Shown in pieces: positions 13,464 to 59,085 of a stretch of 64,000 nucleotides of DNA (position 1 is the first letter of the stretch; each line of letters opens with the position of its first letter). The position numbers were made by a program, and so were the translations under genes. This DNA is from Sphagnum magellanicum (taxonomy: Eukaryota > Streptophyta > Sphagnopsida > Sphagnales > Sphagnaceae): NCBI GenBank assembly GCA_021904315.1, contig CM038921.1:15784590-15848589 (forward strand), in the 5' to 3' direction. The notes under the pieces were generated by a model. That model did not search any database. It was given only the letters and a program-made list of their open reading frames with translations, and was not told the DNA's origin.

Positions 13464-14731
13464 TGTAAACAAAAAAAAACGACAGCAAGGAGAACCAGCA
13501 GAAGCTGCTGCTGCAGCCTTAGCGACTGCCTATCATGCGCCATGTCCGCTCTCCGCTCTCCTCTACCACTCCTACTTCCATTCCCTTACCCTGCCTTGCT
13601 GCATTCCCTTATCCACCATCGCCAAAGCTCTCAACGAGAGAGACGATGGAATTAGGGTTTCGTCCATCCACCGTTTGGTGAGAGATGATTGTGTTAGGGT
13701 TTCGTCCATCCACCATTCTGTGGGAGACGATGAATTAGGGTTTCAATTAGGGTTTCATCCTGTTCACGGTTTAGGGCGGCTTGGTGCTCACAGAGGAGGC
13801 AAGCTCTCCTGTGGAGGACTATAGCAAATTCAAGTTCGTTCTATAGAGTTTGAGCGTCTTGTGGTTGTTGGATTTATGAAATATTGTGTCTTTGGTAAAG
13901 AAGCTGCAATCCGCAGTGGAGTTGCGCGAGTGAATTTGTTCTTTTCAGTGCATGTTTCGGTATTGAAGGAGATTTCGCAATCAGAATAGAACTTTCGGTC
14001 TCTCGTGAGAACATTCACGACCCCCGCTCATGACGCTGGAGAATGCAAGTTTCATTATGAAGTGCGCGTCGGAGGTGTCGGCGTCTGATGAGGAGCAATG
14101 CGCAAATGAATACTCAAGAGCGTGCACATCGCTGGTTTCGAAAAAGCCGGAAGCTTCAATCTTCAAGTATGTGCTTATCGAACCTGCACAGCATCTTTTT
14201 TTCTTTCTTTTTTTTCACGATTTGCAGGGGCAGTTTTACTCTTGGAGATGCACAGGATTGATAAGCAGATCTGCAGATTTTGTTCACGATTTGCAGGCAG
14301 TGGCATTCTAATTGGAGAATCTCAGCTTGAAAACCTATTGATGAGCCATTCAAAGACCTCATTTACGACTGCACGCGATGTTGCCGTGCCTGTTCAAGGT
14401 TGCACATTTGCTGGCCAATGGGTACGCTGCCTCAACCAACTCATTATGTAACTTTTAGGGGACTTTGCAATTAGGGTTTAGGAGGGAGAAGAGATCTGCT
14501 CTGGGAGGAGCCTGTCTTGAATCCTTTGCCATGGTGGAACAACAGGTCAAAGAGGAAGGTGGGAGCTATGTGTCAATCATGAGAGAAGGAGATGTTTGAA
14601 CACATCAGGGGTACCAAGGAGATTCCTCGGGATGTGGCGTGCATCAACAACCCTGGTGTCGGCCAAAACAAAGCAATCTTTGATCAGGCTACGGGCTGCA
14701 CAGTTTACTGTGTCTCACACACAGGAAGACC
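13464..14731 (+). promoter_or_regulatory. Upstream/leader region of the PPR gene
   Basis: Between the F-box remnant and the PPR start, CT-rich sequence with AGGGTTT elements suggests a plant promoter/leader. AGGGTTT recurs at 13653, 13695, 13737, 13749 and about 14475. Several short open frames exist but none resembles a known protein. A 5' intron is possible but cannot be placed with confidence. Confidence 0.45.
13652..13770 (+). repeat. 42-bp minisatellite, each unit starting with a telo box
   Basis: Two successive 42-bp units (13652 and 13694) each begin TTAGGGTTTCGTCCATCC. A third partial unit at 13736 holds two further TTAGGGTTT copies. The telo box (AAACCCTA on the other strand) is a known promoter element of plant translation and organelle-related genes. 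Confidence 0.8.
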
Positions 14732-17700
14732 ATGAAGCAGCATGCCAAGACCAAAAGTGGTAACCATTCTTTCTTGACTCCTGAAGAGAGTCTCCTTTTG
14801 TTGAGGAATTGTGTGTCTGGTGCTTGCCTCAAGAGCATAGATATCATGCATCCATGTCATGTTGACATGGCTGTAATTCTGAAGGATTTTGAGAATATTA
14901 GCTCTTTGAGCTCATTATGTCTGATGATCTTGATCCAGTGCTTTTGTAACTGGCACATCATGTGTGGAATCAGGTTGCTTATCAGAAATAAGACTGGTGA
15001 CAGAAGTAGAACTACTGCCATCGATTCTCCAACTCTGGAAACAAGGTCACAAAACGAAGCTAAAAGGATTGCTGCTGACACCTGTGAGGACATAAGGACA
15101 CTGATCAAGATGGCACGACCAGTGAAGGTGCTGCACATTCTGGATCAACAAGGCATTCGTGTAGACTTCTTTATTTATGCAACTCTTCTGCGGAGGTGCA
15201 CTCAGATGAAAGATATGATGGAAGGGAAGCGGGTTCATGCACATATCATCAAAAGTGGAATGCAGCCAGACATCTACCTTGGCAACACCTTGTTGAATAT
15301 GTATGCCAATACTGGAAGTGTAATAGATACACACTGTGTATTTGACAAACTTCCCCAAAAAGATGTAGTATCATGGAATACTATGATTGTGGGATATGCT
15401 AAGCATGGTTATGGTGAAGAGGCTTTCAGATTATTCCACCAGATGCAACAAGAAGGCTTCAAACCTGACACTGTCACATGCACAAGCATTTTGAAAGCAT
15501 GCACAGGCCCAAGAGCCTTAGGATGGGGAAAACATGTACATTCCCACATCATGAAAGCAGGATACAATGTTGATGTGCGTGTGGTGACTGCCCTTATCAG
15601 CATGTATACAAAGTGTGGAAAGAACAAGGAGGCTTTTGAAGTTTTTTATAACATGCAAGAAGCTGGTGTGGAGCCTGACAATGTCACTTACACAAGCATC
15701 TTGAATGCATGTACTAGCCCAGCATCCCTGGAAGGAGGGAGGCAGGTTCATGCACAAATCCAGAAATCTAGATTTGATCCAGATGTACGTCTCTGGAATG
15801 CAATTATTGGCATGTATGTCAAGTGTGGAAGTATTAAGGAGGCTTTCAACATGTTTCATGAAATGCAACAAAAACATGTGGAACCAGACAGCATCACTTA
15901 CATGAGCATCTTAAATGCATGTGCCACACCTGCGACTTTGGAATGGGGGAAGAAGCTTCATGAAAATATCAGGAAATCTGGATTAGACTCTGATGTTCGT
16001 CTGGCAAATGCGCTCATTGGAATGTATGCAAAGTGTGGAGCAAGTAACGAAGCTTTTGATGTGTTTCACCAAATGCATCAAGAAGGAGCTGTGCTGGACA
16101 GAGTCACTTACATTTGCATTCTCAAGGCATGTGCCAGTCCAATGGCTTTGGAGTTGGGGAGGCAGGTCCATGCTCATATCAAGAAATCTGGATTTGACAG
16201 TGATGTTCGTGTGAGGACAGCACTTATTTGCATGTATGTTCAATGTGGGAGTGATCAGGAAGCCTTTGAAGTGTTTCACCATATGCAAGGAGAAGGTGTG
16301 GTCCCAGACAAAGTCACTTATATGAGCATCTTGAATGCATTTGCCTCTCCAGCAGCTTTGAATTCAGGAAAACAGGTCCATGTCCATGTCAGGAAATCTG
16401 GATTGGAACATGATTTGCGTCTTGCAACTGCTCTCATCAGCATGTATGCAAGGTGTGGTGGATATGAGGAGGCATTTGAAATGTACCATAATATGCAGCA
16501 ACAAGGCCTGGAGTTGGACAATGTTGCTTACATTAGCATCTTGAATGCATGTGCCAGCCCAGCAGCTTTGGAGGATGGGAAAGAGGTCCATTCCAATGTC
16601 AGTAGATCTGGATTCAACAATGATGTCTCTGTAGGGAATGCTCTTATGAGCATGTATTCTAGGTGTGGAGCAAGTGAGGAGGCTTTTAAAGTGTTTGATC
16701 AGATGCAACAAGATGGTGTGGAGATAGACATTATGTCTTACACCTGCATTCTCAAGGCATGTGCCAGTCTAGCAGCAATATCAGAGGGCAAGCAATTACA
16801 TGCCAATATCATTAAAGCTGGATTTGGGGCTGATATCCAGATCGGCAATGCTTTGATTGACATGTATGCAAAGTGTGGAAGCCTTGAGGCTGCACGCCAA
16901 GTATTTGATGTCATGCCTGAACGAGATGTGATTTCATGGACTGCCATGATTGTTGGGCTTGCTCAGCATGGGTGTGGTGAAGAGGCCCTTCAGGTCTTTG
17001 AACAGATGAGGGTTGAAGGAGTTGAGCCAAATGCAGTCACATTTGTTGGTGTTCTCTCTGCTTGCAGCCATGCAGGCCTAGTTGAAGAGGCCTATGGCTA
17101 CTTCAGCTCAATGTGTCATCAAAATGGCATCTCACCAGTAGGTGAGCATTATGGCTGCATGGTGGACCTTCTTGGCCGTGGAGGGCATCTAAATGAAGCA
17201 GAGGATCTTATCAAGAAAATGCCAGCAGAGGCAGATGCAGCAATCTGGGGATCCTTGCTTGGTGCTTGCAGAACTCATGGCAATGTTGAGCTAGCAGAAT
17301 GTGCAGCAGAAAACTGCCTCCAGTTGGAACCTAAGGATGCTGCAGTGTATGTGCTGCTTTCACACATCTATGCAGCTGCTGGCATGTGGGACAGTGTAAC
17401 AAAGGTGAGAAACACAATGAAGGAGAGAGGTATCCAAAAGGAGCCAGGTCGCTGCTGGATTGAGGTGGAAAATAAGATACATACTTTTGTGGCAGAAGAT
17501 AGAACACACCCACAAACAGAGGAGATCTATGCTGAGCTAGATAAATTGACTGGACAAATGAAGGAGGGAGGATATGTGGCTGATACCCGCTGTGTGATGC
17601 ATGATGTGGATGAAGGGGAGAGAGAACAGGCTATCTGCTACCACAGTGAGAGGCTTGCCATTGTTTATGGACTCATCAGTACTGAACCTGGGACACCCAT

Positions 17701-17851
17701 TCATATCTTCAAGAACCTTCGGGTTTGTTCTGACTGTCACACCGCAACTAAGATTATTTCCAAGATTGTCAGGCGAGAAATTGTAGCAAGGGATGCAAAT
17801 CGTTTTCATCACTTCAAGGACGGGTCATGCTCGTGTGGTGATTATTGGTGA
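14732..17851 (+). CDS. PLS-class pentatricopeptide repeat protein with complete DYW deaminase domain
   Basis: Organelle RNA-editing factor of the DYW class, 1039 residues in one exon. PPR motifs bind RNA one base per motif, and the DYW domain deaminates C to U. Visible order: N-terminal 145 residues without motifs (transit peptide presumed); first L motif 146-180, S motif 181-211, P motif 212-246; then an array in which 35-residue L motifs alternate with 35-residue hybrid motifs to residue 700; a standard S motif (701-731) and P motif (732-766); L2/S2 (to ~835); E1 (836-869) and E2 (870-903); then PG box (EPGRCWIEV, 904-912) and DYW domain. The DYW domain has the HSE catalytic triplet (971-973), CSDC (999-1002) and the terminal CSCGDYW, so the active site and zinc ligands are complete. 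The ATG at 14732 is the first in frame; the N-terminus is atypical, and translation from Met127 or an upstream spliced exon cannot be excluded. No lesion is seen. Confidence 0.95.
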   Translation: MKQHAKTKSGNHSFLTPEESLLLLRNCVSGACLKSIDIMHPCHVDMAVILKDFENISSLSSLCLMILIQCFCNWHIMCGIRLLIRNKTGDRSRTTAIDSPTLETRSQNEAKRIAADTCEDIRTLIKMARPVKVLHILDQQGIRVDFFIYATLLRRCTQMKDMMEGKRVHAHIIKSGMQPDIYLGNTLLNMYANTGSVIDTHCVFDKLPQKDVVSWNTMIVGYAKHGYGEEAFRLFHQMQQEGFKPDTVTCTSILKACTGPRALGWGKHVHSHIMKAGYNVDVRVVTALISMYTKCGKNKEAFEVFYNMQEAGVEPDNVTYTSILNACTSPASLEGGRQVHAQIQKSRFDPDVRLWNAIIGMYVKCGSIKEAFNMFHEMQQKHVEPDSITYMSILNACATPATLEWGKKLHENIRKSGLDSDVRLANALIGMYAKCGASNEAFDVFHQMHQEGAVLDRVTYICILKACASPMALELGRQVHAHIKKSGFDSDVRVRTALICMYVQCGSDQEAFEVFHHMQGEGVVPDKVTYMSILNAFASPAALNSGKQVHVHVRKSGLEHDLRLATALISMYARCGGYEEAFEMYHNMQQQGLELDNVAYISILNACASPAALEDGKEVHSNVSRSGFNNDVSVGNALMSMYSRCGASEEAFKVFDQMQQDGVEIDIMSYTCILKACASLAAISEGKQLHANIIKAGFGADIQIGNALIDMYAKCGSLEAARQVFDVMPERDVISWTAMIVGLAQHGCGEEALQVFEQMRVEGVEPNAVTFVGVLSACSHAGLVEEAYGYFSSMCHQNGISPVGEHYGCMVDLLGRGGHLNEAEDLIKKMPAEADAAIWGSLLGACRTHGNVELAECAAENCLQLEPKDAAVYVLLSHIYAAAGMWDSVTKVRNTMKERGIQKEPGRCWIEVENKIHTFVAEDRTHPQTEEIYAELDKLTGQMKEGGYVADTRCVMHDVDEGEREQAICYHSERLAIVYGLISTEPGTPIHIFKNLRVCSDCHTATKIISKIVRREIVARDANRFHHFKDGSCSCGDYW
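15422..16891 (+). repeat. Seven exact 210-bp tandem units inside the PPR gene
   Basis: Residues 231-720 form seven units of exactly 70 residues, starting at 231, 301, 371, 441, 511, 581 and 651, with no insertion or deletion between them. Each unit reads A-F-x-V/L-F-x-x-M-Q ... I-L-N/K-A-C-A-S-P ... H-x-x-I-x-K-S-G ... A-L-I-x-M-Y-x-K-C-G. Confidence 0.95.
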
Positions 17852-21649: not shown

Positions 21650-22560
21650 GTGATCTTTGTCATGATGTTTGTTGTGTTCATTATGGTCCTCTTCTTATAG
21701 CCATGAAATCCTCTCCCCCCACCCCCACTTTGCTTGCATTCTAATCCTCGTCTTGGTGTTCATCATGTTCATCTTGGTCCTCTTGCTACAACTCTTGATC
21801 CTTGTCATGATGGGCATCATGTTCATCATGGTCCTCTTGTTGAAGCCATGAAGCATGCTTTGCTTTTGCTTGGGTCATGATCCTCGTCTTGATGTTTTTC
21901 ATGTTCATCTTAGTTCACTTGTTATAACTCCTAATCCTATTCATGATGTTTTTCATGTGAATCATGGCCCTCTTGTTGTATTCATGAAATGTTGCCCCTT
22001 TTTACTTGGGTCCTTCAATCCTTGTCACAATGTTTGTCATGTTCATCTTGGTCATTTTGCTACAACTTTTGATCCTTGTTGTGATGTTCATTGTGTTTGT
22101 CATGCCTTCTTGTTGTGACCATGACACACTCCCCCCTTCTTGCTCAGGTTTTGATCCTCATTTTCATGTTTGTCATGGTCCTCTTTGTTGCATCCCTTGA
22201 CACTTGTTATGGTTTGTCCTAGTCTTCTTGTTACAACTATAAAATGCCCCCCCTTTTATTTAGGTCTTAATCCGCATTTTGATGTTGTCATGTCCATGTT
22301 CATCTTCTTGTTGTAATTATTGATCCTTGTTATGATGCTCATTGTGTTCATCTTCGTCCTCTTGTTGTAAACAAGAAATACCCCCCTCTTGTTTAGGTCT
22401 TAATCCTTGTTTTGATGTTCATCATGTTTGTTATGGTCCTCTTATTCCAATTCCTAATTCTTATTTTGATGTTCATCCAAATCTTGATCTTCATCATGTT
22501 GGTCATGTTTATCCTACCACTCCCCTCCTTCTATTGTTCTTGATTACTCTATGGTAGTTT
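21650..22560. repeat. Degenerate tandem repeat, about 135-bp period, six to seven units
   Basis: Each unit combines a C-run (CCCCCC after CATGAAAT-like sequence), a TTGGGTCTTGATCCT-like block and TCATCATG / GGTCCTCTTGTTGTAA blocks. Unit boundaries fall near 21699, 21845, 21982, 22118, 22234 and 22368. On the minus strand it reads as Asp/Glu/His/Gln-rich repeats (QQEDQDEHDEH-like) interrupted by stops. On the plus strand it gives hydrophobic open frames that I regard as accidental. Confidence 0.8.
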
Positions 22561-36320: not shown

Positions 36321-39300
36321 AGTGCCATTCCAGTGGGATGTGACGCATGCAAACAAACCATGGTCAAGAATGTTACACCTCCCTGAGCCCTTCATTCCCA
36401 TGTCTTGAATAAGCACACTACTGCCTTATTTGTTAGCTATGCCTCTTAGAGTGCTAGGAGACATTATGACTCAGTCTTCCTGTTGCTTCTGGAAGTGTGA
36501 CAGATACTCAGGATGAAGATTTTTTGCATTTGTTGTGCAAAGCTTAACCAGTTCATTGCATACTTGTCTCCGTCCACTCTCTAGATCTGATAAGGGGCTG
36601 CGGAAAAACAGCTATTAGACATTGCCATTCATGATGAAGGCCATGATCTTATACTTTATGAGTGACTCACAAAGTATTGGCAAGAGTCATTTTGTGAATT
36701 TACATTTTTTTTTGCACGACATCAATGACTGAGTCTTCCCTTTGCTTCCAGAAATGTGACAGAGACACAGGATGCAGATTTTGTAGGATGGTTTGCCCAG
36801 ATTTAGAGCTGATTATTATACACCCTCTCTTGAGAGCTGATGAAGTCAGTGGGTAGTCATGGCAGCTTGTCACAGCTATTTGTGATATGGTGATGTTCTG
36901 ACACTTGTTGAAAGACTCTCGTAAGGTTAACACTGCATTCATTGTTGTGTCACATTCAAAATTATTGTTATGGAGAGTTCTCTGTAAGTTCATAGATATT
37001 TTGTTTTTGCCATCTAACCAACACAACATTTGTTTCATTAGCTCACATCTTTCTCTGGAGTTGCTCTCTGCAATCACATTGATATTTGTGCTAGGACCAT
37101 GTTCTAGAAACCAGCCTGTTTGTGACTAGGCAAATGTGATGGGAGAGTGGGTTTCATCAGCTCTGCTTTACTTTTGAATTAAGAATTCCCTTGGAACAGT
37201 GAGCCAAAATGTATTGAGCCGGTATTGCTCTTTTCTTGGGGGTTGTATTTACTGATCCTGACTGCTAGTAATCACCATTCCTTATTGTGGAGTTAACATC
37301 AAAATTGACCTTGTGGAAAGTTCGACTGCTACCTTACCTTGGTAGGCTAATCAATGCAGCTTGAATAAGGATATCGATATCCAGGGGTTTCCAGAATTTG
37401 TGAAGGATGAAGTGGAGGCGAGAGTGTACACATTTACATACAGCAACTACTGCGGCTCATCCAAGATCACAATTTTGAGATATTTGAGCATACCCAGTGT
37501 CCCCAATTTTTTCTGAGACCTGTGCTGTTGTGCACATCTTCAGTCATCTCCTTCAAGCACAGCTCCATGAAGCTCAGCAGACAAAGTCCTTGTGGAAATC
37601 GATTACATTGGCTGGACTTGTTTTCCCAATTTATTAATACCAGAAGATAGGGCTCTCTTTCACCAAATCTCTGAAATGTGAGTGCTGTATATACATGCAC
37701 AATGCAACTTGTGAGTGAATCCCCTAATGTTTGTACTTTGCCTGGTAGGGCCTTTCAGGTAGTATTGCTTGAACTCAAGCTTTTATTACAAAAAAATCAC
37801 TACATGACATAACATGGGTGTATTTCTAAAACTCTGAATTTCACTAAGATTGGAGTGAATCTAGAGGTTTTGCTACCTACCTCTTTAGCTATTAGCCAGA
37901 ACTGCAGATTTTTTTTTCAATTATTACTTAATATTTAATATGTTTAAATTCACGAGAATACTTGTGTTATGCTTTATGATGGGTTTAGGGTTTATGGTTC
38001 ATTCATGCAAACTTTGATTTATTTAAAAAATTCGTCATATGTTGGATATACTTACAAAAATATTGGATGTACATGTGGTACATGGTGGCATTAAATGCAT
38101 GGTTAGATGTTGCACATCCATGCCTATTCATGTTTTTCTGGTGTAGGGATATTGCATCATCTATTCCTCATCAAAAATACATGGTCCAAAGTATCCATCA
38201 AATAGAAAAAGCAAACCACATGGCACAATGTTAATGCATCTAGAGGACCAAGGATGACATTAAAATATTCACCAAGCCAATCACTTTCACTTATAAGGAA
38301 GGCAAAAGTTGTTAAGTGGATTTCTTGCAAAGGGTGGTTGTTTATACAAATGCGAAGATTTTGTGTTCACAAATTTCCTCATTAGAGACTTGAAATATTC
38401 AATATTTTTGTCACCTCCACTTGGGCATGTAAGAAAATTTCATTTCATGATTTTATGGATTATTTAATGATGAAACTAACCATAAGGCCCTATGGCATAA
38501 TATCCCTCCTTTTTTGGGGAGGGATAGTCATGAATATAAGGCGCCTTCCAAATAGACTAGGAATTTCTCCAAATGCTTTATCATGAATGCATGCAAGTCA
38601 AGTTCTATTGTTGTGATGATTTGTGAATTAAACAACAAATTGTGGTTTGTTCATTTTGTCATTAGGAGTATTGTGTGTGAATGCCTTAGCATGCCCACAC
38701 ATTGTAAAACACTATCCATAAGTTTTTATTGTAGATTCTAATGGGTTTAGAAACCAAAATTTCCTTTCAAGAAATGGGCTGGATGTTTTCTTCTTGGGCA
38801 GGGTATTTCATTTCGATGAGGGATTTTTAGAATTTCCCTTTTTATTAATTTTTTATAATAAAATCACTTTTGAAACTCAAAATTTTTCTACCACTCTATT
38901 TTAAATCATTAAATGATTAAGTTCATTACTTTGCTATCACTTGATTTTAAATTCAAAGAAATGAAATATTTAACAAACTTGAATTTACAAGAAGTTTTAT
39001 TTCTTTCATGAATTCAATATATGAATGTCTCACCTTTGGATACAAATGGATATCCAAATCTAATCTTAGAAGAACACAAAATCAAATTGGACAATGCACA
39101 ATGTAAAATCTCTTTTAAACATAGAATTTCATAAAATTACATCATCAATTTATCAAAACTTATAATTATGTTTATGTATGTTTTAAAGTACTTTGGAATG
39201 AAATGAAAAGTAATTTGCATGCACAAGAACAAAAATAATCTAAAAAAAGTGATCACTCCTTTGTATGGCCCTACATATTAGGTATGTAGCAAACGAGTAG

Positions 39301-41284
39301 CAAAATTTGGATCACAAATTAATAGAGTAATGTTCCAAGGACTCATTCATGGGTGGGGTTCCAAAAACTGGAATAGGGACTCTAGGATTTTGTTAGGGCT
39401 AATTTTTTCAAATATCATTTACATGAACCAAATTTGATGCGACAGTGTGATTTTTCACATGTGAGACCTAATTGTGCATTGACATTTTCATTTATGAATA
39501 AAAACACAATAAATGTCAAAATGAGTTTTTACGGGTAATCAAACATGTTTTTTTGCATGATTATTTCTTGCACGTGTGACATTTGCCTAGAGCTAGAAAT
39601 TCTAAACCTAGTGAACATTTTAAAAAGTGGTAAAAGAAATGAGTCCTTTCCTTTAAAGCCTTGTGGTCCAAAATTTCAAGCCTTTGAAATATTGATATAT
39701 ATTTTTTCATCAAGTTCACCCAATGAACATATATTTGCATAAAAGGATTCTTATATTTAAAATTTAATTATCTGAATTAAAATGATCAATTCATATTAAT
39801 ATTTAATTTATTCAGTGTAATGAATTAATTAATAGTAATATAATAAGTTAGATATTATTTAATATATAATGAATTAGTGATTAATAAAAAAATTATTAAA
39901 TATTAAATATGAATGTATCTAATTAGTGTTTTATTAAGTAAACATTAAACAATTTCTAATTAACTAACTATTACTACATATTTTTTATTAACTGTGACAT
40001 GTACTTTCTATACGTGCATTTCAAAAAAATGTACTTAAATGTATATTAAAACATGCATTTCTTCAATATTATGTAATAAAGTCAAAGAACTTATAATTGT
40101 TGATCATTAACTTAAATAATATTCATGGATTCAATATATTAAAAGTGAGTTTACGGATACTTTTCAAAAAACCAAATGGCTCTAGGTGGCATATTTTATC
40201 ATGCTTATGCCCCAATCAATTAATTAATGGTAACAATTCATCAATAATTATTAATTATTGTATCAATTTATGATTTAAATTTAATCAATGAATTTAAATA
40301 TTTGAAGTAGCTCACTAAATAATTAATTATTATATATTGGGTAGTATTAATTAAATTTTAATAAACTAATTAAGTAACATTAATTGTTTCATAGTTTATA
40401 TTGACTAATCAATTAGTTGATATTAATTATTCATCAATAATTAATATTTTTTTAATGCGATGGTTATATCATATTAATATGACCTAGCCACTATTGTTTA
40501 ATCATACTTTAAAAGACATGGTATATTTTTAAACAAACCATATGCCCATAATATGAGCAAATGTATGCCTAATATATTTTAAATATAAACTAAATACCTT
40601 AATATACCATGAATACAAGTTAAATTTGTTTAATATACCCTGAATACAAATTAAATATATCTAATTATGTTAAATATGTTTAGATATGTTTAATACATAT
40701 TGAATAAAAGCTAAATTTATTCATAATGTAATCCATAATACTTTAATGTATTTTTGATCTTGCGATATTTTGTAAGGGTAGTAAGAATAAACCATGATCA
40801 TGAAGGGGAGGAGGAGGAGGAGCAAAGGGGACAACAATAATCACCTTCATTGCACATCATTTTAATTAGAAATGCATTTAAAGGGCACATCACATCAAAT
40901 TAGTTTAGTCATGAAAAATAGACATGATCACTACAACTTATTTTGAACAACGATGTAATGACAGTAAAACATGTGATAAGTGGGTGGCACCTTAATTAAT
41001 GGTGACTGCAATGATGACATTCACTCCTAATGACGTATTTCAATTTATAGGTTTGTGATATTTGTGTATATATTGGAATATATTAGTAAGTTTATTTTGT
41101 ACATTGGCTTAGGTTTTCAACACACAAGTTTTGGTGAAATAATTTTGAATAAAAATGAAGCAAATCATAAATAATTTCGAGTGATATTATTTAAATGAAA
41201 TCATAATGATTTTAGAATGGGTGACATTATAGTGGTGACATATGTGTCACCACTCATTATTACATGTTTGGATGTGATGCATAT
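36321..41284. other. Gene-free stretch, increasingly AT-rich
   Basis: Two copies of a ~70-bp block (about 36466-36535 and 36726-36795) share CAGTCTTCC..TTGCTTC..GAA.TGTGACAGA. From 37740 onward AT content is very high, with TAATTAAT-type words at 39760-40700. A 9-bp-arm hairpin (GTGGTGACA TATG TGTCACCAC) lies at 41232-41253. No gene is recognised. Confidence 0.5.
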
Positions 41285-43641
41285 CACTAGAAGAAATTTG
41301 AAAATCAATGATTAAATTTGCAATTCATTTATAGCTGTAGTGGACACATGCGACTTAAAATAGCCTAGTTGCCTTGAACAAGTGCCATAAGACAATTAGT
41401 TGCAAAAGACATGACATGGCTATGAAGTTGAAAATGTAGTCACAAACCTTACAACTAGGCTAAAATTTCTCATCCAATTTGCGACTACATTTGGAACAAT
41501 TGCATGCTACCAAATGTGCCATTGAAGGTTGGTTAGGATTTAACCATGTGGTAATTTAAAAAACCAATGGCCATAAAATACATGGCAATTTTCCATTTGT
41601 TCAAAAAAGATATATTCTAATTACAATAATTAAATATTATAATTAGAGTAATTAAATTACAATTACAATAATTAATTATTAATATTAATTAATTATAATC
41701 TATCCCAAGCTAAACTATAATAAACAACTTATTCTAAGCTAGGCTAGCTAGCATAGGCTAAGTAAGTAGGTAGCATCCTATTTATTTTGTTGGGGACAAG
41801 CCTTTCGATTGGCTCATCCCAAATGGCACATGCACTATAGTGCATGTTAATAGTGCATAGATGAATCTAATCCATTCCTTCACCTACTTATATACTTTAC
41901 AAGTTTGAAGTTGTAGACAAAAGAGATATGGGACAATTTTAATGAAAGGGAAACATTATGACACTACAACATTATCACATCCTTTGTCCCATACAAAAAC
42001 ATTATCATATATTGACACAATAAAATATTCATTGTTTTCATTAACTATTTACTGCCTATCCTACTTACTACCTACTACCTACAAATTAACCTACCAAATT
42101 AATTAATCAATTAATATAAAAACATTATGACATATCCACACAATAAAATACCTACTACTTAACTTAACTACTTACTATTTACTATTTATCCTACTTATTA
42201 TCTACTACCTTGGCTACATATCTATTATCTATTACCTAACCTACATTTAATAAATTAATTACCTAACCTACCTACCTACCTAATTCATTAATTAATATTA
42301 TTACTATAAAATATTCATATATCCACATAATAAAATATTTACAATTTAACCTACCTATTACTTACTACCACCTATCCTACTTATCATATACTACCTAGGC
42401 TACAAACTTACTATCTACTACCTAGCCTACCTAATAAATTAATATCTTAACCTACATTTAGTAAATTAATTTTTTAACATAGCTAATCAATTAATCAATT
42501 AACACAAAAACACTACGACATATCCACAAAATAAAATAGCTTTTGCTTAATTTATAAGCTACCTACTTACTACCTATTAATAGTTATCCTACTTATTACA
42601 TATTATCTAGGTTACATACCTACTATCTATTACTTAGCCTACCTAATAAATTAATTACCTAGCCTACATTTAATAAATAAATTGTTTAACATAGCTAATT
42701 AATTAATCAATTAATACAAAAACATTATGACATATCCACAAAATAAAATACCTTTAACTTAGCTTACCTACCTACCTACTACCTACTAGTACCTATCCTA
42801 TTTATTACATACTACCTATCCTAACTAATTAGTTGATTAAGTACCTAACCTAATTAATTAATATGAAAACATGATCACATATTCATACAATAAACTAATA
42901 AACCTACCTATTATTTATATTCCTATTTACTACCTACTACCTAATTTACCAATTAATTAATGACCTAGCTTACCAACTACCTACCTGGCTTACTTAAACT
43001 AACTAGGTTTAACTTTCATAGTTTAGCCTATTAGCTACACCTAATAAATTAGCCTACTATTAATTATAGATAATTTAGGCCAATTAATTAAGTATGCAAG
43101 TTAAGCTAGGCTACCAATGTACATAGGCCTATTTAGTTTAACATAACCTATTAAGTTTAGTTAGTTTAGTTTAACAACTAGGTTATAATAGCTTGTTTTA
43201 GCAAACTATTAGCTATTATATATTATATCATGGAAGACCCATGGACATTGAAAGGACAATAGTCCAATTGAAATAACAAAGTTTGCCATATGTGGTCTAT
43301 GTTTCTTTGTTCATGTGATAGAATATACTATTGCAATTGAAAAACCTTTCATTTGTAATTACAAAAATAACTACGTTATCATCCATTGATGAATGCAATC
43401 AAAATTGGATGACATCATTCATTTTTCATCTACATTTTCAATGAAAATCATATTAGTCATAAGTTGTAGTCGCATCTATAACTAGAATTTGGTTCAACCC
43501 TTCATGTAGTTGCATATGTGATTACAACAAGTTGTAACTACATGGACACGTAGGACGAACACAGTAAAATCAATTGGTTTGGACATTAGTCACATAATAG
43601 TTGCAAAAATATGGTCAAAATGGACAACATTTCTTCTAGTG
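41285..43641. mobile_element. CACTA-type (En/Spm) transposon, non-autonomous, both ends present
   Basis: The left end is CACTAGAAGAAAT at 41285 and the right end ATTTCTTCTAGTG at 43629-43641, a perfect 13-bp terminal inverted repeat. The flanks carry the same 3-bp sequence TAT (41282-41284 and 43642-43644), the target-site length expected for CACTA elements. Both subterminal zones carry short words in both orientations (GTAGTCGCA, TGCGACTA, TTAGTTGCA, GTTGTAACTAC), also typical of this superfamily. No transposase is encoded in the 2357 bp. Much of the interior is the CCTA-rich satellite listed separately. Confidence 0.8.
41960..42990. repeat. CCTA-rich satellite array inside the CACTA element
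   Basis: Repeated units are marked by ATGACATATCCACA then AATAAAATA, followed by CCTACTACCTAC-type sequence and TAATAAATTAATTACCTA. Unit starts lie near 41996, 42130, 42318, 42520, 42733 and 42873, so the period varies from about 135 to 213 bp. The 42520 and 42733 units are the most alike. Confidence 0.8.
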
Positions 43642-43644
43642 TAT

Positions 43645-45359
43645 ATTAATTTGTATATGTACACTCTTATTTTGATATTTGTTGCTAGCCCACATAACAT
43701 GAAAAAACATGTACAAGAGAAAACCAAAGCTATAGTCTAAGACTAACAAACCTTAATGTTATATTGTGGATCATGTTATATGGGACAAGATGGAGGCCAA
43801 GGTTAAAGGGTTGATAACAAGCATGAATGAAATCAAAGAGTTACTCCTAATGACTAAAGGAGGCCTTGGTGGTAGTTTAGTTAGTAGAATGTTCATTGCC
43901 AACATGGAAGGGTCACAAATGGTGCCAAATCGGACTAATTCCTTAAAGGAGATAACCTTAATTTGAATGCTTAGGTTGGCTAACCTTATTCCCACTCCCA
44001 AAGCCTTGAAAATCTAATATAAAAGATAGTTTTCCCAATCATGTGTGAATGATGTGGCAAACAATGACACATTGGATGGACACATGTTCATTATACACAT
44101 CTATCCACAAAAATATTGTTGCTACAATTAACTATGTGGAGTTAAATTGGTGACCTTTCTATATAATGACATTTGTTCATTTAAAATGCCAATTATCTAG
44201 TGACACATTGTATTTTGAGGTCAATTTCATTATTCAATAATCATTAACAAGTGAAGTTAATCTTGGTTGTTCAAGTTTTTAACATTTGAATAGTTAGTAT
44301 GGTTATTGTACTTGTACATATTCTACATAACTAACAATACTAATATAATAATTGTTAATACAATTAATAATGTAAACTAGGCTTGACTTTTCTTTTCAAC
44401 TTAAGAAAAAATAAAGGAAAATGGTGAAGAAGTTTGAGTTGATAGGCATCATTGCCAAAAACATGTGTTTCTTTTCTTAAACTTGGAGTTCATAAGTAAT
44501 GTTTTCTATAGATAAAGCTAATGGATAACCATTAATCCTTCCATTATTTGAAAGGGATGTTTGATCATTATAGAAAATCAAAAGGGTTGTGACCCCACTT
44601 AAGTAATAATATAACTTTGCATGAATTGCCACCAATCACTAATGTTTGGAATGGAGTATGAATGTTCATGCATTGTGCTAGATGAAACACTAGATGATTT
44701 TGGACCAAGGTCAAAACCTACATCATTAGCAAGGGTTGAAAAAAGGGTGCAAAACTTTACCAAAGGATCATTGTCATAAAAATGGATTCGATATGGATTG
44801 CCAACTTTTTCAATCACCTTATATTCCAACCAACCATCTTCTCTAACCAAACCCTAAAATTAAAGTTATATTTATCATTATTATATTGCATTAAAAGGAT
44901 CCAAACCTTAAACCCTAAACCCAAATGTACTATAATTATTCATGTTTTACAATTCAAATTATTTTTTAAATTCATGCAACGATCCAAGAAATATTGAATT
45001 TTGATTCAATTTTTTAATTGTTAATTTATAATAATCAACAAAAATCAACTTATGTTTAGACTTAGGCCAAACAACATCTAGTTTAGGGTTAGGCCTAGGC
45101 CACCTAGGATAAGCTTAAACCTAGGCCAAGTGCCATTTAATTAATAAATTTTTTTTTCATTTTTGGTTTAGACTTTAAAGTCAAGCTTTTGTAATTGGCT
45201 CATCTCAAATGGTTATTCTAATTTAAAGTTTTTTTTCCAACATTTTAAATGCATTTTTTATATAATTTGAAAACTTGTGATGTAAGACAAATAATATGGG
45301 ATAAACATTTTCACTGCAACTTAGTTGTAACCTAATTAGGTGTAACCTTGTTGCAATTT
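43645..45359. other. AT-rich stretch with two unrecognised short ORFs
   Basis: An ORF at 43766-43966 (plus, 66 codons) reads KMEAKVKGLITSMNEIKELL, coiled-coil-like and reminiscent of a retroelement gag start, but no family can be named. An ORF at 44850-44599 (minus, 83 codons) contains REDGWLEYKVIEKVGNPYRI and is unlike low-complexity noise. Neither has supporting context. Confidence 0.3.
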
Positions 45360-46140
45360 AAGGTGAAATTACATTATGGTGACCCCTTTTGGGGTGTCAC
45401 ATTATATATATTATTTTCCAAAGGTGTGCATGTTTGAGTGTATCCCACTTCAAACTTTTGAAAAAATTTCATAACCTAGGCAAAATATTAAATTTTTTTA
45501 ATTTTATTTTTTATAAAGTGGGAGATTGCAGTATATTTATGGAAACAAATGTAGTGTACCTATGTACTTAAAAACACAAATATACTTCAAAAATAATTTA
45601 AATCACTTTTAATTTTTATGAAAGTTAAAGGTATATTGAACCATGTCATTTCACATAATTTGAACCATGTTTGGATACCATGTGACTAATTTGAAAATTT
45701 TCATTTCAAAAAATGTGTTTTTTTAAACAAATATGCGATAAGTGTGTGGTAAATTGAAAATTTGACAAATAATCGCATTCACATGGAAGATGACAAAACA
45801 TATTTGGATGGAATTTTTTAAAAAATTCATTAAAATCAATTAATTTAATGAGTAATGAAACCTTAAAACGAGTGCAATCAAAACGAGACAATGGCCATGT
45901 TATATTAATGTACATTATATATATACTCATGGATCCTTCAATATAGATAATGAAATTTATTGTTATTAAAATAATATTACATAACATTAGTTTTGTAAAA
46001 ATAAAAATTATAAGGCTCAAACACCAAAATCAATTCCCAAAATTAAATGTACCATATTTTTGAATTAATTATATTGTATGTACTATAATATTAGACCCAA
46101 AAATGCCCCAAAAGGGGTCATTGTAGTGTGCTTTCACCTT
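45360..46140. mobile_element. Small DNA transposon with ~35-bp terminal inverted repeats
   Basis: The left end (45360-45394) begins AAGGTGAAATTACATTATGG and ends GACCCCTTTTGGGG. The reverse complement of 46106-46140 begins AAGGTGAAAGCACACTACAA and ends TGACCCCTTTTGGGG. The two match over about 35 bp with a few changes. The interior is AT-rich without a coding frame. The target duplication is unclear, so the superfamily is left open. Confidence 0.6.
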
Positions 46141-47264
46141 TTAATCACAACTACCTACTAATTACACTACCTAGTAAACCTACTACCAATTAACCTAACT
46201 CAATATTCATTAGTTAACCTAACTTATTATCTATCATAACATATATGTGGCACCTAGGTTGTGCTAAAATTAGGTGGCATGTAGGCCGAGATCATTAAAA
46301 ACCTATCTATACCTATTTAATACCCATCATAAGTAGTTTAAAGGCTTTATAGTTATTAGTCATGTAACATATGTGCTACCTAGGTTGGGCCTAAAGTTAG
46401 AGAGGTCATGGCACCTAGGCCTAGACCACCTAATACCCATCCAATTATACATGACATATATAACTTATAACTAAATAGCTAAAAAATACATATTAGATAG
46501 GAACATCAATCTTTGATTAAAATGCTGAAAAACACATTAAAATTTTTGAAAAAGAAAAATGTTGGGAAAAAAATTCTTCAAAAAAATTGAAGTTCATTTC
46601 ACTAGAATTTGACTATTTAAAATTTGAAAAAATATTTTCCATAAAAAATGACAAAAGAAAGTAAAAACAAATATTCATTTAAAAAAAAATTGTTTGTAGC
46701 AAATTATTTGTGAAGTTCATTTTTTAGAACCCTACTTGAACATTTTTTGTAAACCTCTAATTGAAGTGAGGTCCAAAGCAAAGTTATATCCTTCGTCAAG
46801 AGCTTTCCAAATATATGTGGCTCGTCACCTACACACAAGTAACTGAAAGCAATTCCCGACTTTTAATGGTCGAGAGTCAAATTGACACTTTGATTCCCGG
46901 CCCTTTTTTCAACCATAACTTGTGTTTTAAATACCCAAATGAGATATGCGAGCCTATTTTAAACATCTACTTTCTAAGAGCTTTCCAATGATATAATGAA
47001 CTTTTCAATCCAATGAGTTTTGACCCTTGCAATTGTTCTATAAAAATTCGAGAGTCCCAATGGACTTTAGCTCCCAAAGTGGGAGCCCATTTGGGAGTGT
47101 GTGGTTCATTCCCTCACACCTTCATACACTCTTGGAAGCATGAAATATGACTCTTGGGCTTCACTTTTAGCTCGTACCTTTGCAAGCCCTTGTTTTGATC
47201 ATGAACCCAAGGTCAAAATCGTAACATATAACAAAAGGAACTTGATGAAGACATTGGTTTGTTA
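46141..47264. other. AT-rich, partly duplicated intergenic sequence
   Basis: Two imperfect copies of a ~130-bp block (from about 46232 and 46367) share ACCTAGGTTG and TTAATACCCATC / CTAATACCCATC words. CCTACTA words as in the CACTA satellite appear near 46150. No gene is recognised. Confidence 0.45.
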
Positions 47265-48865
47265 ATTGTAAAAAATAATTTACCAATTCAATTTGTTGAA
47301 AGTGTTTGGTTCAAAAGATTAAAATTACATTTGTGTCCAAGAATTAATTTTCCTTACCATAGGCAATTTTCATAAGAGATTTTGCCAAATTTGGTGGAGA
47401 AAACTAATCTATTATATGTTCTACTTAATTTTTCAAAATGTTATACAATAACATGTTTTGATTTATGGATGAGTAAAGGAGCACATGATATTTTAGCTTT
47501 AATTGTAAATGTTTTGGGATTTGATTGGTAACTTAAACATTTTATTATTGGGTTGTTTGAAGTTATAAAAAACTTCGAGACATGCGTTAGCTTGAAATTT
47601 GACAAATCCATTAAACAAATTTGGTTTAAAAAAAAATCATTACATATATGACAGATGAGGCCTTTAATGCAATGACTTTTGCTTTGAAATCTGTTGTTAG
47701 TTATGAAACATTGGGTTTACAAGAAAGCTTCAATAGTACTTATTTTGGGCATGTTATTTTCAAAGCATGACAATATGTTATAGCTATTGAAATTGTGTGC
47801 AAAATTTTAAAATATGTATCAATTAAAGCAAACTAAGCAGATTTGCAAAAGTGTATAACTTGGCCCAAAAAATCTAGGAAGGGTAGATTAGAGTGGACTA
47901 AAATTTGTGTTAATTCTAGAATACATCATAGGAAACTTAGTACCCTAATGAAAACAATGTGAGTTTTATATATTTTTATATTTAATGAAATTGGAAATTT
48001 TTGTCTAAGTTTTTTAATTTGTTTTGTGTGAATGAAATTGGTAATATATTTTGTTTAACTATTTTGTAGGTTTGTTAACAAGAGGCATTTCAAGAGGCAT
48101 TGTTGTTTTGAGATGTTATAATTTTTTGTTAAAGTAGACAAGTTATTATATGAAGTTGGTTAGTTGAATACCACCACCTCTTACATGCCACATTTGTTAG
48201 ATCACTGTTGATTACCCTTCCCCTATTGTGACTACCTGTGTTTTGAACTAATCCCATAATCATTGATTATTAAGTAATGTGTTGAATTTTGCAATATCCA
48301 TGATTTTAAAACTTAAAGATGTGCATGATGTTTTGTCATCTTTGTAAAACCTAATGGAAGAGGAATCAATTGCTGTTGATGAGTTAACTTTATTTGCTTC
48401 TAACATCAAAAAAGGAGTTTGTGTTGTGTTAGAATCTTTCCTTTCTTTTTTGAGGAAATTTGAAAAAAATAAAGTTCATAACATACTTTTTGTTGTTGTT
48501 AGATCCTAGGTTTATAAGCCAAGTTGTTGAATGTTTTCATTCGTTGGAAGGGAATAAGGTGTTGCTATTGTTTAGGAATATGATACAAATATTTGTATCC
48601 CATGTTATTGAAATGCCATCATCATTTGCATCCTTTGGTGAAAACTGAAAGTTATTTTGTTAACATTGGTGTTGATGAGGATTATAGTTTGGATATATTT
48701 GAATAGATTACCAAATAAAAATGAACCAACAAAAGAACTTGTGAATAAAGAGCTCTTCATTTTCAAACAGTACCAAGTGGATGTGAAGGAAATAAAATGC
48801 CCCTTGCAATGATGGAAGAAACATGAATCAATGTTTCCAATAGTGAGGCAATTATAATAGAAATT
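47265..48865 (+). mobile_element. Dead hAT-superfamily transposase, copy 1
   Basis: Coding remnants in order: NNLPIQFVESVWFKRLKLHL (47275), FDLWMSKGAHDILALIVNVL (47460), KHFIIGLFEV, SVVSYETLGLQESF (47690), ADLQKCITWPKKS (47840), SNIKKGVCVVLESFLSFL (48400), KVHNILFVVV, and near the end EPTKELVNKELFIFKQYQVD and HESMFPIVRQL (48725-48850). This is the usual order of a plant BED-finger hAT transposase from its middle to just before the dimerisation region. The N-terminal finger and C-terminal dimerisation block are absent, and stops and frame changes are frequent. Confidence 0.7.
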
Positions 48866-50618
48866 GGCCAAAATGATATTTGCGATTTAATACATGCGAC
48901 TATTAGTCATTTATGATTACTTTTGGACAATTTTGCAACTATTTCTTTTATTAGTCATATTTGCAACTACATTGTAATTAGTTTGTGACTATTTTGATTT
49001 TCATTCTTCCATGTGAACAACATTTAATTTGGTTTTCATCTGAGGAAAACTTATGTCCCATTAGTTGCAAACTTGATCAGTTTAGTTGCAACCCTATGAG
49101 TATACAAATGTGTATTTTGTTTATTTTAAGGGGTATAGTTGGGTATATTGAGACTTATGAATGTACATTTTGAATGTATATGGATGGCTTCGGTATTATG
49201 GTTACACCAAGTGTATTATTTGAGTATAAGAACATGTTTGTCTATAGAATAGAGTTCCATGAGCCATTAGCATGAATCCCTTCCAAGTGTTTAAAAGAAA
49301 ACTTGATATAAAAAATTTGACAAAATTTAACCATAAAAAGGCAAAATTAGTTAAATTTACATTAGACAAAAACATTCCAAAAAATTCCCAATTTCTTTGT
49401 CAAAATATGGCATAATTTCACTTAGAAAAAAACATTATTTCCTCCCCATTTCATAATTGTTAAGCTCATATGAGTGAAATGCCTCACCAAACAGGTCCGC
49501 CTTGTAAAAAAATGTTTCACTAAAATGCAATGCCCATCGATGAGGTCATTGTGACCTTCAAATTAATGGAGACCTTTGGGAACATGCTTTCCATCATACA
49601 TTTTTTTATCAAAATAAAATCTCTTGATTGTTCGTAATTGAATTAGTGTTGATTAAATAAGTTGGGAATCCCATGAAAATAATTAAGATGCCAATGATTA
49701 ACTAACCAAATGTTGAATTACCCAAGTCTTGCATGTTGGTTAGGGTGAAATAACACTTGAGTATATCTTAATTTAAGCTACCTAAATTAACATGACCGAA
49801 CTTCATTGAACTATATTAGTGTAACTTATCTACCTTAACCTTCTAACTATGTATATATGTTGCAAGCATAAGAAATTAAACCTCAAGCTTTCACAATGAT
49901 AAACCAAGTTTTTTACCATTGGATTACACCATTAAAGGATCTATTTAATTTTTGTTAAGTTTTTTATTTCACAAGTTTATTTCACATCACTAAACATAAT
50001 AATCAAACCTAAGCAACACCTAATGCTAAAAATTAGGTTAAATATAATGTTTAAATTAATCTAATGACTAAATCTATTGATTAAATATAATGATTAAACT
50101 TTGACTAAACATTGTTCTCAAATCAAATGATTAAATTAACGAATAAACATAATGATTAAACTCAAATTAAATTTGATGTCTAAATTTAATGATTAAATAT
50201 AGTAGTTAAACTTAAGCTTTATTTAATGTTTATACCTAATGTTTAAATTTGGGCTAAATTTAATGACCAAATCTAATGGCTCAATTTAAATTAAACCTAA
50301 TGGCCAAATCTAGTGGTTAAAAGTAATGGTTATACTTAATACTTATTGGCTAAATATAAGTTAAACCTAATGTTAAAATTTGGTTATTTAATGATTAATA
50401 TAATGATTAAACATAATGGTTAAACTTAAATAAATAAGTGAGTGAATAAATAAGTAGTATGTAAATGTGAGTAGGTAAGTAAGTAGGTAAGTAGATAATA
50501 AATAGGTGGGTGAATAATAGATAGATAAATAACTAGCTAGGTAAATAGGTGGATGAATAAGTAAGAGGTAGATACATAATTTAACAAATCATGTCACATT
50601 TAATTAAAAAACATTTGT
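48866..50618. other. AT-rich stretch with CACTA-like subterminal words and simple repeats
   Basis: From 48890 to 49100 words such as TGCGACTATTAGTC, TTTGCAACTACA and TTAGTTGCAA recur, like the subterminal zone of the CACTA element at 41285, but no TIR was found. From 49980 to 50420 the sequence is degenerate TAATGATTAAA-type repeats. From 50430 to 50570 it is GTAA/GTAG/GATA-rich, close to a complement of the CCTA satellite. Confidence 0.5.
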
Positions 50619-50708
50619 CATTTTGATTAAATGTTCCAATTGATTAAAAATTATTGACCATTTTGATTAAATGTTCCAATTGATTAAAAATTATTGACCA
50701 TTTTGATA
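50619..50708. repeat. 40-bp tandem repeat, 2.3 copies
   Basis: Two consecutive identical 40-bp units (50619-50658, 50659-50698), containing ATGTTCCAATTGATTAAAAA, are followed by a partial third. Confidence 0.9.
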
Positions 50709-51026
50709 AATATATAACTTAAGTAAATGTATAGAATCAAATAAATCACTATAGTAAAATTGAGCAAGCAAAAAATGCATATGTTATTGAAACCCTTAAT
50801 CTTTAATCAAAATATACATATCCATTAGTTTAAAAAAATAAATTAATCAACTTGAATCGAAAAAAATTTACGATTTGTCATAGTTTCATGTAACAACAAA
50901 ATAGCCTCTAATCATCTCAAAAGTTTTAATGGAGCAACACCTGACATCACACTTGGATAACCTTCCATTTGTCTATTGACAATTTTAAGGGGGGCAGCAC
51001 CCTAGTTGTTGCACTCCCAAATACAA

Positions 51027-51121
51027 CCCCAGGTCATCCCCTTGGCTCAAATAAGCTCTCGCTTATTTGCATTGGTTGACCCAGTGCCCTTATTGTCTGA
51101 GTGCTGCTTGATGACTTGGGG
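51027..51121. repeat. Short foldback sequence
   Basis: CCCCAGGTCATC (51027-51038) is nearly the inverse of GATGACTTGGGG (51110-51121). Between them lies a perfect hairpin AATAAGC TCTC GCTTATT (51050-51067). Confidence 0.5.
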
Positions 51122-51129
51122 AGTGGATG

Positions 51130-51800
51130 ACTTGGATAAGTGTTTAAAGATTGATAACATACTTGGATGATAATCAAGTCATCTATTAAGTAGGTTATTA
51201 GATTTTCAAAAATTCAATACCAGGTGGTTATCTATTCGACCAGTTATCTAAAAAATGAATAACTGGCTTGATAACTAGGTCTTGGTCCGATATCAACTTG
51301 ATCGTATCAACCCGGTTATTAATATCCTACTAGCTGGATACTGAGTTTTTAATAATCACTTAAATTGATAACTACCTTGTATAGAATTTTCAAAAATCTA
51401 ATAACCTAGTTGGATGACCCGAATATCATTTAGGTAGGTTATCAATATTTAAACACTAATAATTTTTTTTAAAAAACAGAAAAAAATGATTAATTAAAAA
51501 TTAAAAAACCTTATCACTGGGTAGTAACTGGCAAGATAATATGTGGTTTCAACTGGTTATTTGATAATGTACCCTTATGCATAACTGACAATTATGACTC
51601 AGATTTTTTTGATAACCTACTTGGCAATCAAATTTTTTGGGATATTGATAACCTTTGTGGTGCACCAAATGAAAAAAAAAAAAAAAAAAAAACCTACCCA
51701 GCGATTATTAAAAAAAGAAATAACTGGCCAACATTGGTATATACTGACTGACCTTTGTTGGGTACCTGTCCAACACTGGTTTCTTAACCATGATAACATG
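51130..51800. repeat. GGTTAT/ATAACC-rich dispersed repeat, copy 2
   Basis: Dense GGTTAT, GATAACCT and GTTATTAAT words, with ACCCTTATGCATAACT near the end, match the character of 30030-30420. A long poly-A run lies at about 51671-51690. Confidence 0.5.
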
Positions 51801-52019
51801 TGACATCATACCACTGCAGGTGCTGGTACACCCAAGGCGGAAAGAGGGAAAGAATTTTTAACACCTGGGTTAAAATTCTCATCTAGGTTATCTTTCAACC
51901 TATGCTAGGTAGAAAGTTAGAAAACCAGCCCCCTGTGACGCCCTGTCCCTGAGTTTGTGCATTTTCCCTTGACTTATTATTAATATACTAGGATGCAGGG
52001 CCCACGGAGGGGGGAGGGC

Positions 52020-54293: not shown

Positions 54294-55220
54294 ATGGGAA
54301 TCATGCATTTGATGATGAGCCACTGCGAAGAAGAGGTTCTGGACCATGATCATCTAACGCACCAAGGGTCCGGAGACTCGGCATCGGCAGGGGAGCTGCA
54401 ATCGCCTGCAGGTCCGGCGACAGGCGGGAGTGGGGTGTGCAGCGTGCGCGACAGGCCTGTGACTAGGGTCACGCTCCCGTGCCCTCGTTGCCAGTCCATG
54501 AACACCAAATTTTGCTACTACAACAACTACAGCGTGAACCAGCCGCGACACTTCTGCCGCAACTGTCAGCGCTACTGGACTGTAGGAGGCACGCTTCGCA
54601 ACGTTCCCGTCGGTGGTGGTTGTCGTAAGAGAGTGCGCACGCGGCTACAGCGCAGCAGCTGTGATGACCCAAGAGCAGGCCTATTGGGCGCCGGTGGGCT
54701 TGTGAACATGACACTTCAGACCAACATTTTGCTTCCCAACACAATACAAATGCAACAGACGACCCAACAGCACCTGTCCTTGTTATCGCAAGTGACAGGA
54801 GGTTGCAAATTAGGCTCCTACAGCAGCCAGGCGCTGCTGCAATCAGGATTGATCGAACGTCTTCCTCCCAATACGAATTTGCCGACTTTTCTGCAGTTTT
54901 CAAACTTGGAGCACGGTGGCCAGAATCATGGATTTAATGCTGGCACTGGTGATCTCAACAGAATCCCTACTAGTGCGGGTCTAATTGGTTTCCAGGATCA
55001 TCATCAGCTGCACTCAACTTTACATTCCGCCACATACGAGCTTCCGTCGAGTACCCTGCAGCCGAGTGCAAACATTCAACTGCTGGCCGGAGGTAATAAT
55101 AATTACGCGGGATTCTCAAACCTGCAAGGGGGGTATTATCATACTCCTCAGAAATCGGAGGGCAATCACATCGAGTTTTTGAGCTCCATGGTGCACAAGC
55201 CTGGTTACTGGGGAGCTTAG
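54294..55220 (+). CDS. Dof-type zinc-finger transcription factor
   Basis: Plant-specific nuclear DNA-binding protein of 308 residues. The Dof domain (61-117) has the full CX2CX21CX2C finger: Cys63, Cys66, Cys88 and Cys91, within [19 protein letters not shown] and [14 protein letters not shown], followed by [12 protein letters not shown] and a basic RKRVRTR tail that can serve for nuclear import. Dof proteins bind AAAG cores. Residues 1-60 are acidic and Gly/Ser-rich. Residues 120-308 are Gln/Asn/Leu/Ser-rich, typical of activation regions, ending in a KPGYWGA motif; a Trp-containing C-terminal motif is common in the family. The coding region is a single exon; Dof genes often have one intron upstream of or near the finger, and a splice-acceptor-like site lies 90 bp upstream. 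The ATG at 54294 is the first in frame; Met4, Met7 and Met8 are near alternatives. The subgroup and target genes cannot be read from sequence. No lesion is seen. Confidence 0.95.
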
Positions 55221-58689: not shown

Positions 58690-59085
58690 TAAATTTTATA
58701 TGGTTCAATTACATGGGTTCACACATTCTATAAAGTCCAAATTGTTTGTGTTAATTAGTGTTTGGCTTTGTGTTGTTTGCTTTTTTGGTTCATGCATTTT
58801 TATTTGGGTTCATCGATTTTGGCTTCATGTTGTTTGGTTTAGTGGGTTTGCACACTTTGTAGATTGTTTGGGTTCATTCATTTTTGCTTCGCGTTGTTCG
58901 ATTTCATGGGTTTGCACATTTTGCAGATCATTTGGGTTTGTTGACTTTTAGCTTCACATTGTTCGATTTTGTGGGTTTATGCATTCTTTAGGTTGTCAAG
59001 GTTTGTCGATTTTTGTTTTCATGTTGTTCGGTTCATGGGTTCGCACATTTTCCAAAGTGTTTGGGTTTGTTGGTTTTTTTTTCGT
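58690..59085. repeat. 64-bp minisatellite, five to six units
   Basis: Units start TTTGGGTT(C/T) at 58803, 58867, 58931 and 59060, with a variant at 58996 and a shorter upstream unit. Each contains GCTTC, TGTTGTTCG/TTGG and TGGGTTTGCACA. Open frames across it reflect the repeat rather than a gene. Confidence 0.85.

Follow-up and report, generated by a model that had tools for sequence, protein, structure and literature searches.

In Physcomitrium patens (P. patens), the ten pentatricopeptide repeat (PPR) proteins with a DYW domain (PpPPR_43, 45, 56, 65, 71, 77, 78, 79, 91, and 98) are all listed as arrays of P1-L1-S1 triplets, with two irregular spots in PpPPR_91 (PMC9459714, Table 1). All ten end in S1-P2-L2-S2-E1-E2-DYW, and for eight of them the table likewise gives L1-S1-P1 close to the start. 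The solved synthetic PPR-DYW protein 9kfx has an array period of 101 residues. Natural non-triplet stretches upstream of P2-L2-S2 are described for Selaginella, where, in the sections of PMC8809517 available, monotypic S-type arrays generally consist of 31-residue S motifs and contain no L. Here, we present an analysis of a PPR-DYW gene in a window of 64,000 nucleotides from Sphagnum magellanicum (contig CM038921.1 of assembly GCA_021904315.1, forward-strand positions 15,784,590 to 15,848,589; positions below are those of this window). The array of the encoded protein starts like those of eight of these P. patens proteins and ends like all ten; in contrast, its middle alternates L motifs with 35-residue motifs that are S-like in their first half and P-like in their second half. 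Thus, this stretch, too, departs from triplets upstream of P2-L2-S2, but, unlike the Selaginella arrays, it keeps L, and the partner motif has 35 residues. We conclude that the gene probably encodes a C-to-U editing factor with an array of L plus S/P-hybrid dyads, in which coded contacts would fall on alternate nucleotides.

Gene layout and the 70-residue period

Based on the list of open reading frames (ORFs) and Pfam, the gene is an intact ORF of 1039 amino acids (aa) at 14732-17851 on the forward strand, as are all of its parts described below; these coordinates are those of the open frame only and fix neither the true start nor a possible upstream intron. Pfam matches, all of which exceed the curated cut-offs, identify tandem PPR motifs (PPR_2, E 2.1e-117, and further PPR matches), an E motif (aa 849-911) and an E+ motif (aa 916-941) at 17276-17554 (PF20431 and PF20430), and a DYW deaminase domain (aa 947-1039) at 17570-17848 (PF14432, E 3.6e-42). 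The DYW domain has HSE at aa 971, CSDCH at aa 999, and DYW at its C-terminal end, and a PG-type box lies just ahead of it at aa 905. Among Protein Data Bank entries, 9kfx is the best sequence match; aligned with the 373 C-terminal residues, it is 68% identical. Judged from the motif register, motif lengths, and the 9kfx alignment over that region and beyond, P2-L2-S2 precedes the E region. Hence, three sequence hallmarks of a DYW-type editing factor are present, i.e., tandem PPR motifs, P2-L2-S2 before the E region, and E, E+, and DYW with HxE and CxxC, and the gene product is probably a DYW-type factor for C-to-U RNA editing in plant organelles, with both location and activity predicted from the protein family.

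We placed the motif register by eye from known motif lengths, and there are no gaps between motifs. The array starts canonically with L1 (aa 146-180; 15167-15271), S1 (31 residues, aa 181-211; 15272-15364), and P1 (35 residues, aa 212-246; 15365-15469), together spanning 15167-15469. It also ends canonically, with S1 (31 residues, aa 702-732; 16835-16927), P2 (aa 733-767; 16928-17032), L2 (36 residues, aa 768-803; 17033-17140), and S2 (32 residues, aa 804-835; 17141-17236), together spanning 16835-17236 and followed by E-E+-DYW. Between these ends, at 15470-16834, seven L motifs of 35 residues (starting at aa 247, 317, 387, 457, 527, 597, and 667) alternate with six hybrids of 35 residues. The hybrids and their code pairs are hybrid 1 (aa 282-316; 15575-15679; T/D), hybrid 2 (aa 352-386; 15785-15889; N/D), hybrid 3 (aa 422-456; 15995-16099; N/D), hybrid 4 (aa 492-526; 16205-16309; T/D), hybrid 5 (aa 562-596; 16415-16519; T/D), and hybrid 6 (aa 632-666; 16625-16729; N/D). 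This assignment rests on the register, motif scoring, profiles built from 9kfx, and the period in the DNA.

An original prediction, made from the letters of the DNA, had described aa 231-720 (15422-16891) as seven units of exactly 70 residues in which L alternates with an S/P motif. The units are as described, without a single indel, and over the 21 unit pairs, 45-60% of residues and 61-71% of nucleotides are identical. The alternation also stands; the count of seven S/P motifs does not, there being seven L motifs and six hybrids, with the first proposed unit beginning inside the true P1 and the seventh finishing inside the true S1. Across aa 181-766, self-identity is 0.467, 0.457, and 0.460 at lags of 70, 140, and 210, respectively, compared with a mean of 0.058 (sd 0.010, maximum 0.097) at lag 70 in 1000 shuffles. 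At the canonical lag of 101, it is only 0.128, while the canonical control 9kfx peaks at this lag (0.762). Independently, Tandem Repeats Finder (TRF) reports a 210-bp period at 15600-16721 (5.3 copies, 70% matches). Three antisense ORFs of 101-119 aa, similar to each other by eye, lie opposite the dyad array (15518-15877, 15983-16288, and 16364-16711, reverse strand); most likely, they are a by-product of the 210-bp period.

Hybrid nature of the six motifs

Using BLOSUM62, we scored the hybrids against S1 and P motifs taken from 9kfx, from the protein itself, or from both pooled. All six are S1-like up to a switch point and P-like beyond it. With own or pooled references, the switch is at motif position 16 or 17 in every hybrid, and with 9kfx references only, it is at 14, 17, 16, 16, 18, and 25. 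Thus, the predicted succession of an S-like and a P-like part is borne out, but the seam lies earlier than the ~20 residues proposed. Scored against 9kfx, the two S1 motifs of the protein are S-like in both halves (totals of +59.7 and +84.3), and its P1 and P2 are P-like in both halves (-75.3 and -71.7); the totals of the hybrids are near zero (-2.7 to +16.0) because their two halves cancel. Among four reference classes, S1 suits positions 1-16 best (44-52, compared with 18-31 for P1, 5-19 for the P-class motif, and below 0 for L1). At positions 17-31, P1 (33-47) is ahead of S1 (12-32); the P-class motif scores 21-35 there, in between these two or close to them, and hybrid 6 has the highest S1 score in its second half.

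Profiles support the same assignment. We built small S1, P1, and L1 profiles from three 9kfx motifs each, the third "P1" being the last P of 9kfx. The L1 profile matches all seven expected array L positions (21.2-40.9 bits), and each hybrid is matched by both the S1 (15.5-31.4 bits) and the P1 (20.7-26.6 bits) profile. True motifs reach 61.4 (last S1), 63.2 (P1), and 52.2 bits (P2). The first S1 is degenerate and, at 23.6 bits, lies inside the S1-score range of the hybrids, so that the S1 profile score alone cannot tell it from them. A profile of the S1+P junction has near full-length matches only at aa 181-246 (90.7 bits) and aa 704-767 (108.7 bits), and its nine other matches above 0 score 0.2-29.9 bits. 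This agrees with the claim that the junction segment survives only at the first and last S/P pairs; the first pair was placed correctly at 181-246, and the last is 702-767 rather than 701-766. Compared with S1+P1 (66 residues), a hybrid is 31 residues short, i.e., one motif length.

Three described array types do not fit. With the 9kfx-built S1, P1, L1, and junction profiles, no ordinary P-L-S triplets were found in aa 231-720, and canonical (P1-L1-S1)n with triplets of 35, 35, and 31 residues is absent from aa 247-701. Nor is this a monotypic S-type array, since its 35-residue motifs alternate with L, or a P-class array of 35-residue P motifs only, since the L1 profile matches seven of seven array L motifs.

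In AlphaFold models, the seam falls just past the turn joining helix A to helix B, and hybrid-L-hybrid superposes on the designed P-L-S triplet 5izw (of the 5izw/5iww designs) over 101 residues at 1.7-2.1 Å; the last motif of 5izw is a short S, while the third motif of the superposed segment is a 35-residue hybrid. The local fold of the dyad array is predicted with confidence. Each hybrid would consist of an S1-type helix A and turn joined to a P1-type helix B. In such a fusion, the length of one 31-residue motif would be lost per triplet while both native neighbors of L would be kept, a P helix B ahead and an S helix A behind.

There is a modest chance that the dyad is a variant already classified, e.g., under the "LL" or "SS" classes of Gutmann et al. 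2020, and available passages of PMC10482289, citing that work, do mention "SS" and "LL" variants in land plants, with hornworts, lycophytes, and ferns among them. On the other hand, S-type arrays as portrayed in PMC8809517 differ from this array in being monotypic, with motifs of generally 31 residues. Moreover, in the P. patens table (PMC9459714, read by eye), L is directly followed by P in none of the ten DYW and none of the six PLS entries, and among the other 91 entries only in PpPPR_101 and PpPPR_103, neither of which alternates. A search of literature text, to which figures are inaccessible, for alternating L-P pattern strings returned no PPR paper, while the control pattern S1-P1-L1 recovered PMC9459714 and PMC9750133. 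Searches with the whole protein or the 373-residue 9kfx alignment found no relatives in viral and prokaryotic contig collections, which, given the nature of these collections, says nothing about plants. We conclude that the dyad array is a new variant, unless the classifications of Gutmann 2020 or Cheng 2016 already cover it.

Somewhat less probable, in our view, is that the hybrids are ordinary 35-residue P motifs in an L-P array, with a helix A that became S-like by convergence through core packing on the preceding L. Several observations favor this explanation at the expense of a fusion: all six motifs have the P length and a P-like second half, all six are matched by the P1 profile, and the S-like signal rests largely on few positions, chiefly 3, 10, and 14. 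However, positions 1-16 score higher with S1 than with P1 or the P-class motif in six of six hybrids, and the protein's own P1 and P2 score P-like over the same positions. These scores argue against convergence.

Predicted RNA recognition

Position 5 is N or T and the last position is D in all six hybrids, while position 5 of the seven array L motifs is T, T, M, I, M, I, and T. Using the PPR code as given in the accessible part of PMC9508816 (TD=G, TN=A, and ND=U) and aligning S2 opposite -4, as in the passages of PMC10482289 available, the computed coded contacts are -22, -21, -19, -17, -15, -13, -11, -9, -7, and -6; S2, with code pair G/D, was left uncoded. The predicted target would be approximately 5'-YY-n-G-n-Y-n-Y-n-G-n-G-n-Y-n-YA-(5 n)-C-3', where the first base is at -22 and the last is the edited C. 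This prediction supposes one nucleotide per motif, with the hybrids as coding motifs and L as spacers. Six of the 13 motifs of the dyad array would then code, compared with two of three in triplets.

L motifs of the moss protein PPR56 are reported as mainly spacers in the portion of PMC7190159 at hand. Two points speak against a pure spacer role: available text of PMC10482289 mentions some effects of L in other work, and three of the seven array L motifs carry the code pair T/D. In both of these sources, as far as their accessible text goes, the role of L in editing factors is still open. The original prediction had held that the architecture changes motif spacing and thereby RNA recognition. 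Because each motif still has PPR length, spacing per motif is unchanged; what may change is how coding and spacer motifs succeed each other, with one coding motif in two instead of two in three. More tentatively, we speculate that the array is a natural L-hybrid chassis that reads alternate nucleotides with a footprint period of two bases, one motif per triplet having been lost at the helix turn.

Selection, origin, and surroundings of the array

Among the 21 unit pairs, the mean proportions of synonymous (pS) and nonsynonymous (pN) differences are 0.57 and 0.27, respectively. dS ranges from 0.56 to saturation, which is reached in two pairs; the other 19, for which dS is finite, have dN/dS values of 0.22-0.57. 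In the two wrong frames, with stop codons omitted, pS (0.32 and 0.28) is not above pN (0.32 and 0.33). The units are old, and their protein sequence is kept by selection on the reading frame. It is very improbable that the gene is a decaying or nonfunctional copy or the array an assembly artefact, given 1039 open codons, an intact DYW domain, a mean pS twice the mean pN, and DNA differences of 29-39% between units, which would be too large for repeat collapse.

As to origin, the L-hybrid unit likely arose by S1/P1 fusion within a triplet array and then spread; a single fusion of this kind is a plausible and the simplest account. We see the odds as even between one fusion, whose product unequal exchange or gene conversion then spread, and repeated independent fusions in an existing triplet array. 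The common seam in six of six hybrids (own or pooled references) and the equal unit length with zero indels are consistent with a single fusion; however, the helix boundary could itself force a fixed seam. In one protein tree, array L motifs 1-6 form a group that excludes L7 and the first L1, with support of 81/83, which is under the tool's own threshold. The DNA trees weigh against a single fusion, with every bootstrap at 9-45 and L4 paired with L7, as does the high dS; after synonymous divergence of this degree, little trace of the history is left. In positions 15-20, around the seam, S1 and P DNA share 8-9 of 18 nucleotides, compared with 28-37 of 75 elsewhere, and without a rise in similarity there, recombination driven by homology is unsupported by the surviving sequence. 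Thus, of the proposed single deletion and tandem amplification, the shared seam fits, while the low-support trees and the DNA at the seam lend no help.

A tblastn search of the window beyond the gene yielded four matches (best E 0.71) and revealed no second PPR gene. No Rfam family reached its gathering score. Among eight other ORFs scanned with Pfam, a single one is matched, as a Dof zinc finger gene, at 54294-55220 (PF02701, E 4.5e-32). Dof zinc finger genes are plant-specific. TRF also reports a 42-bp repeat (13638-13744, 2.6 copies) that precedes the PPR ORF by ~1 kb, a 136-bp tandem repeat (21743-22067, 2.4 copies, 74% matches), and a tandem array of ~64 bp, also readable as 129 bp (58803-59078, 4.3 copies, 71% matches). 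A 212-bp tandem repeat at 42349-42818 (2.2 copies, 82% matches) is made up of CTACCTA-like words and lies in AT-rich DNA with a strongly negative GC skew (-0.299 at 42001-44000). G+C falls sharply to 27-30% over 14 kb (38001-52000), while other 2-kb steps have 33-48%.

By keeping L with a single coding motif between, the Sphagnum array offers a ready-made natural test of L as a spacer, and the dyad, with its two motifs, may serve as a simpler chassis on which to design editors. Recurrence of the architecture in relatives would show how fusion at a helix boundary can rebuild triplet arrays.
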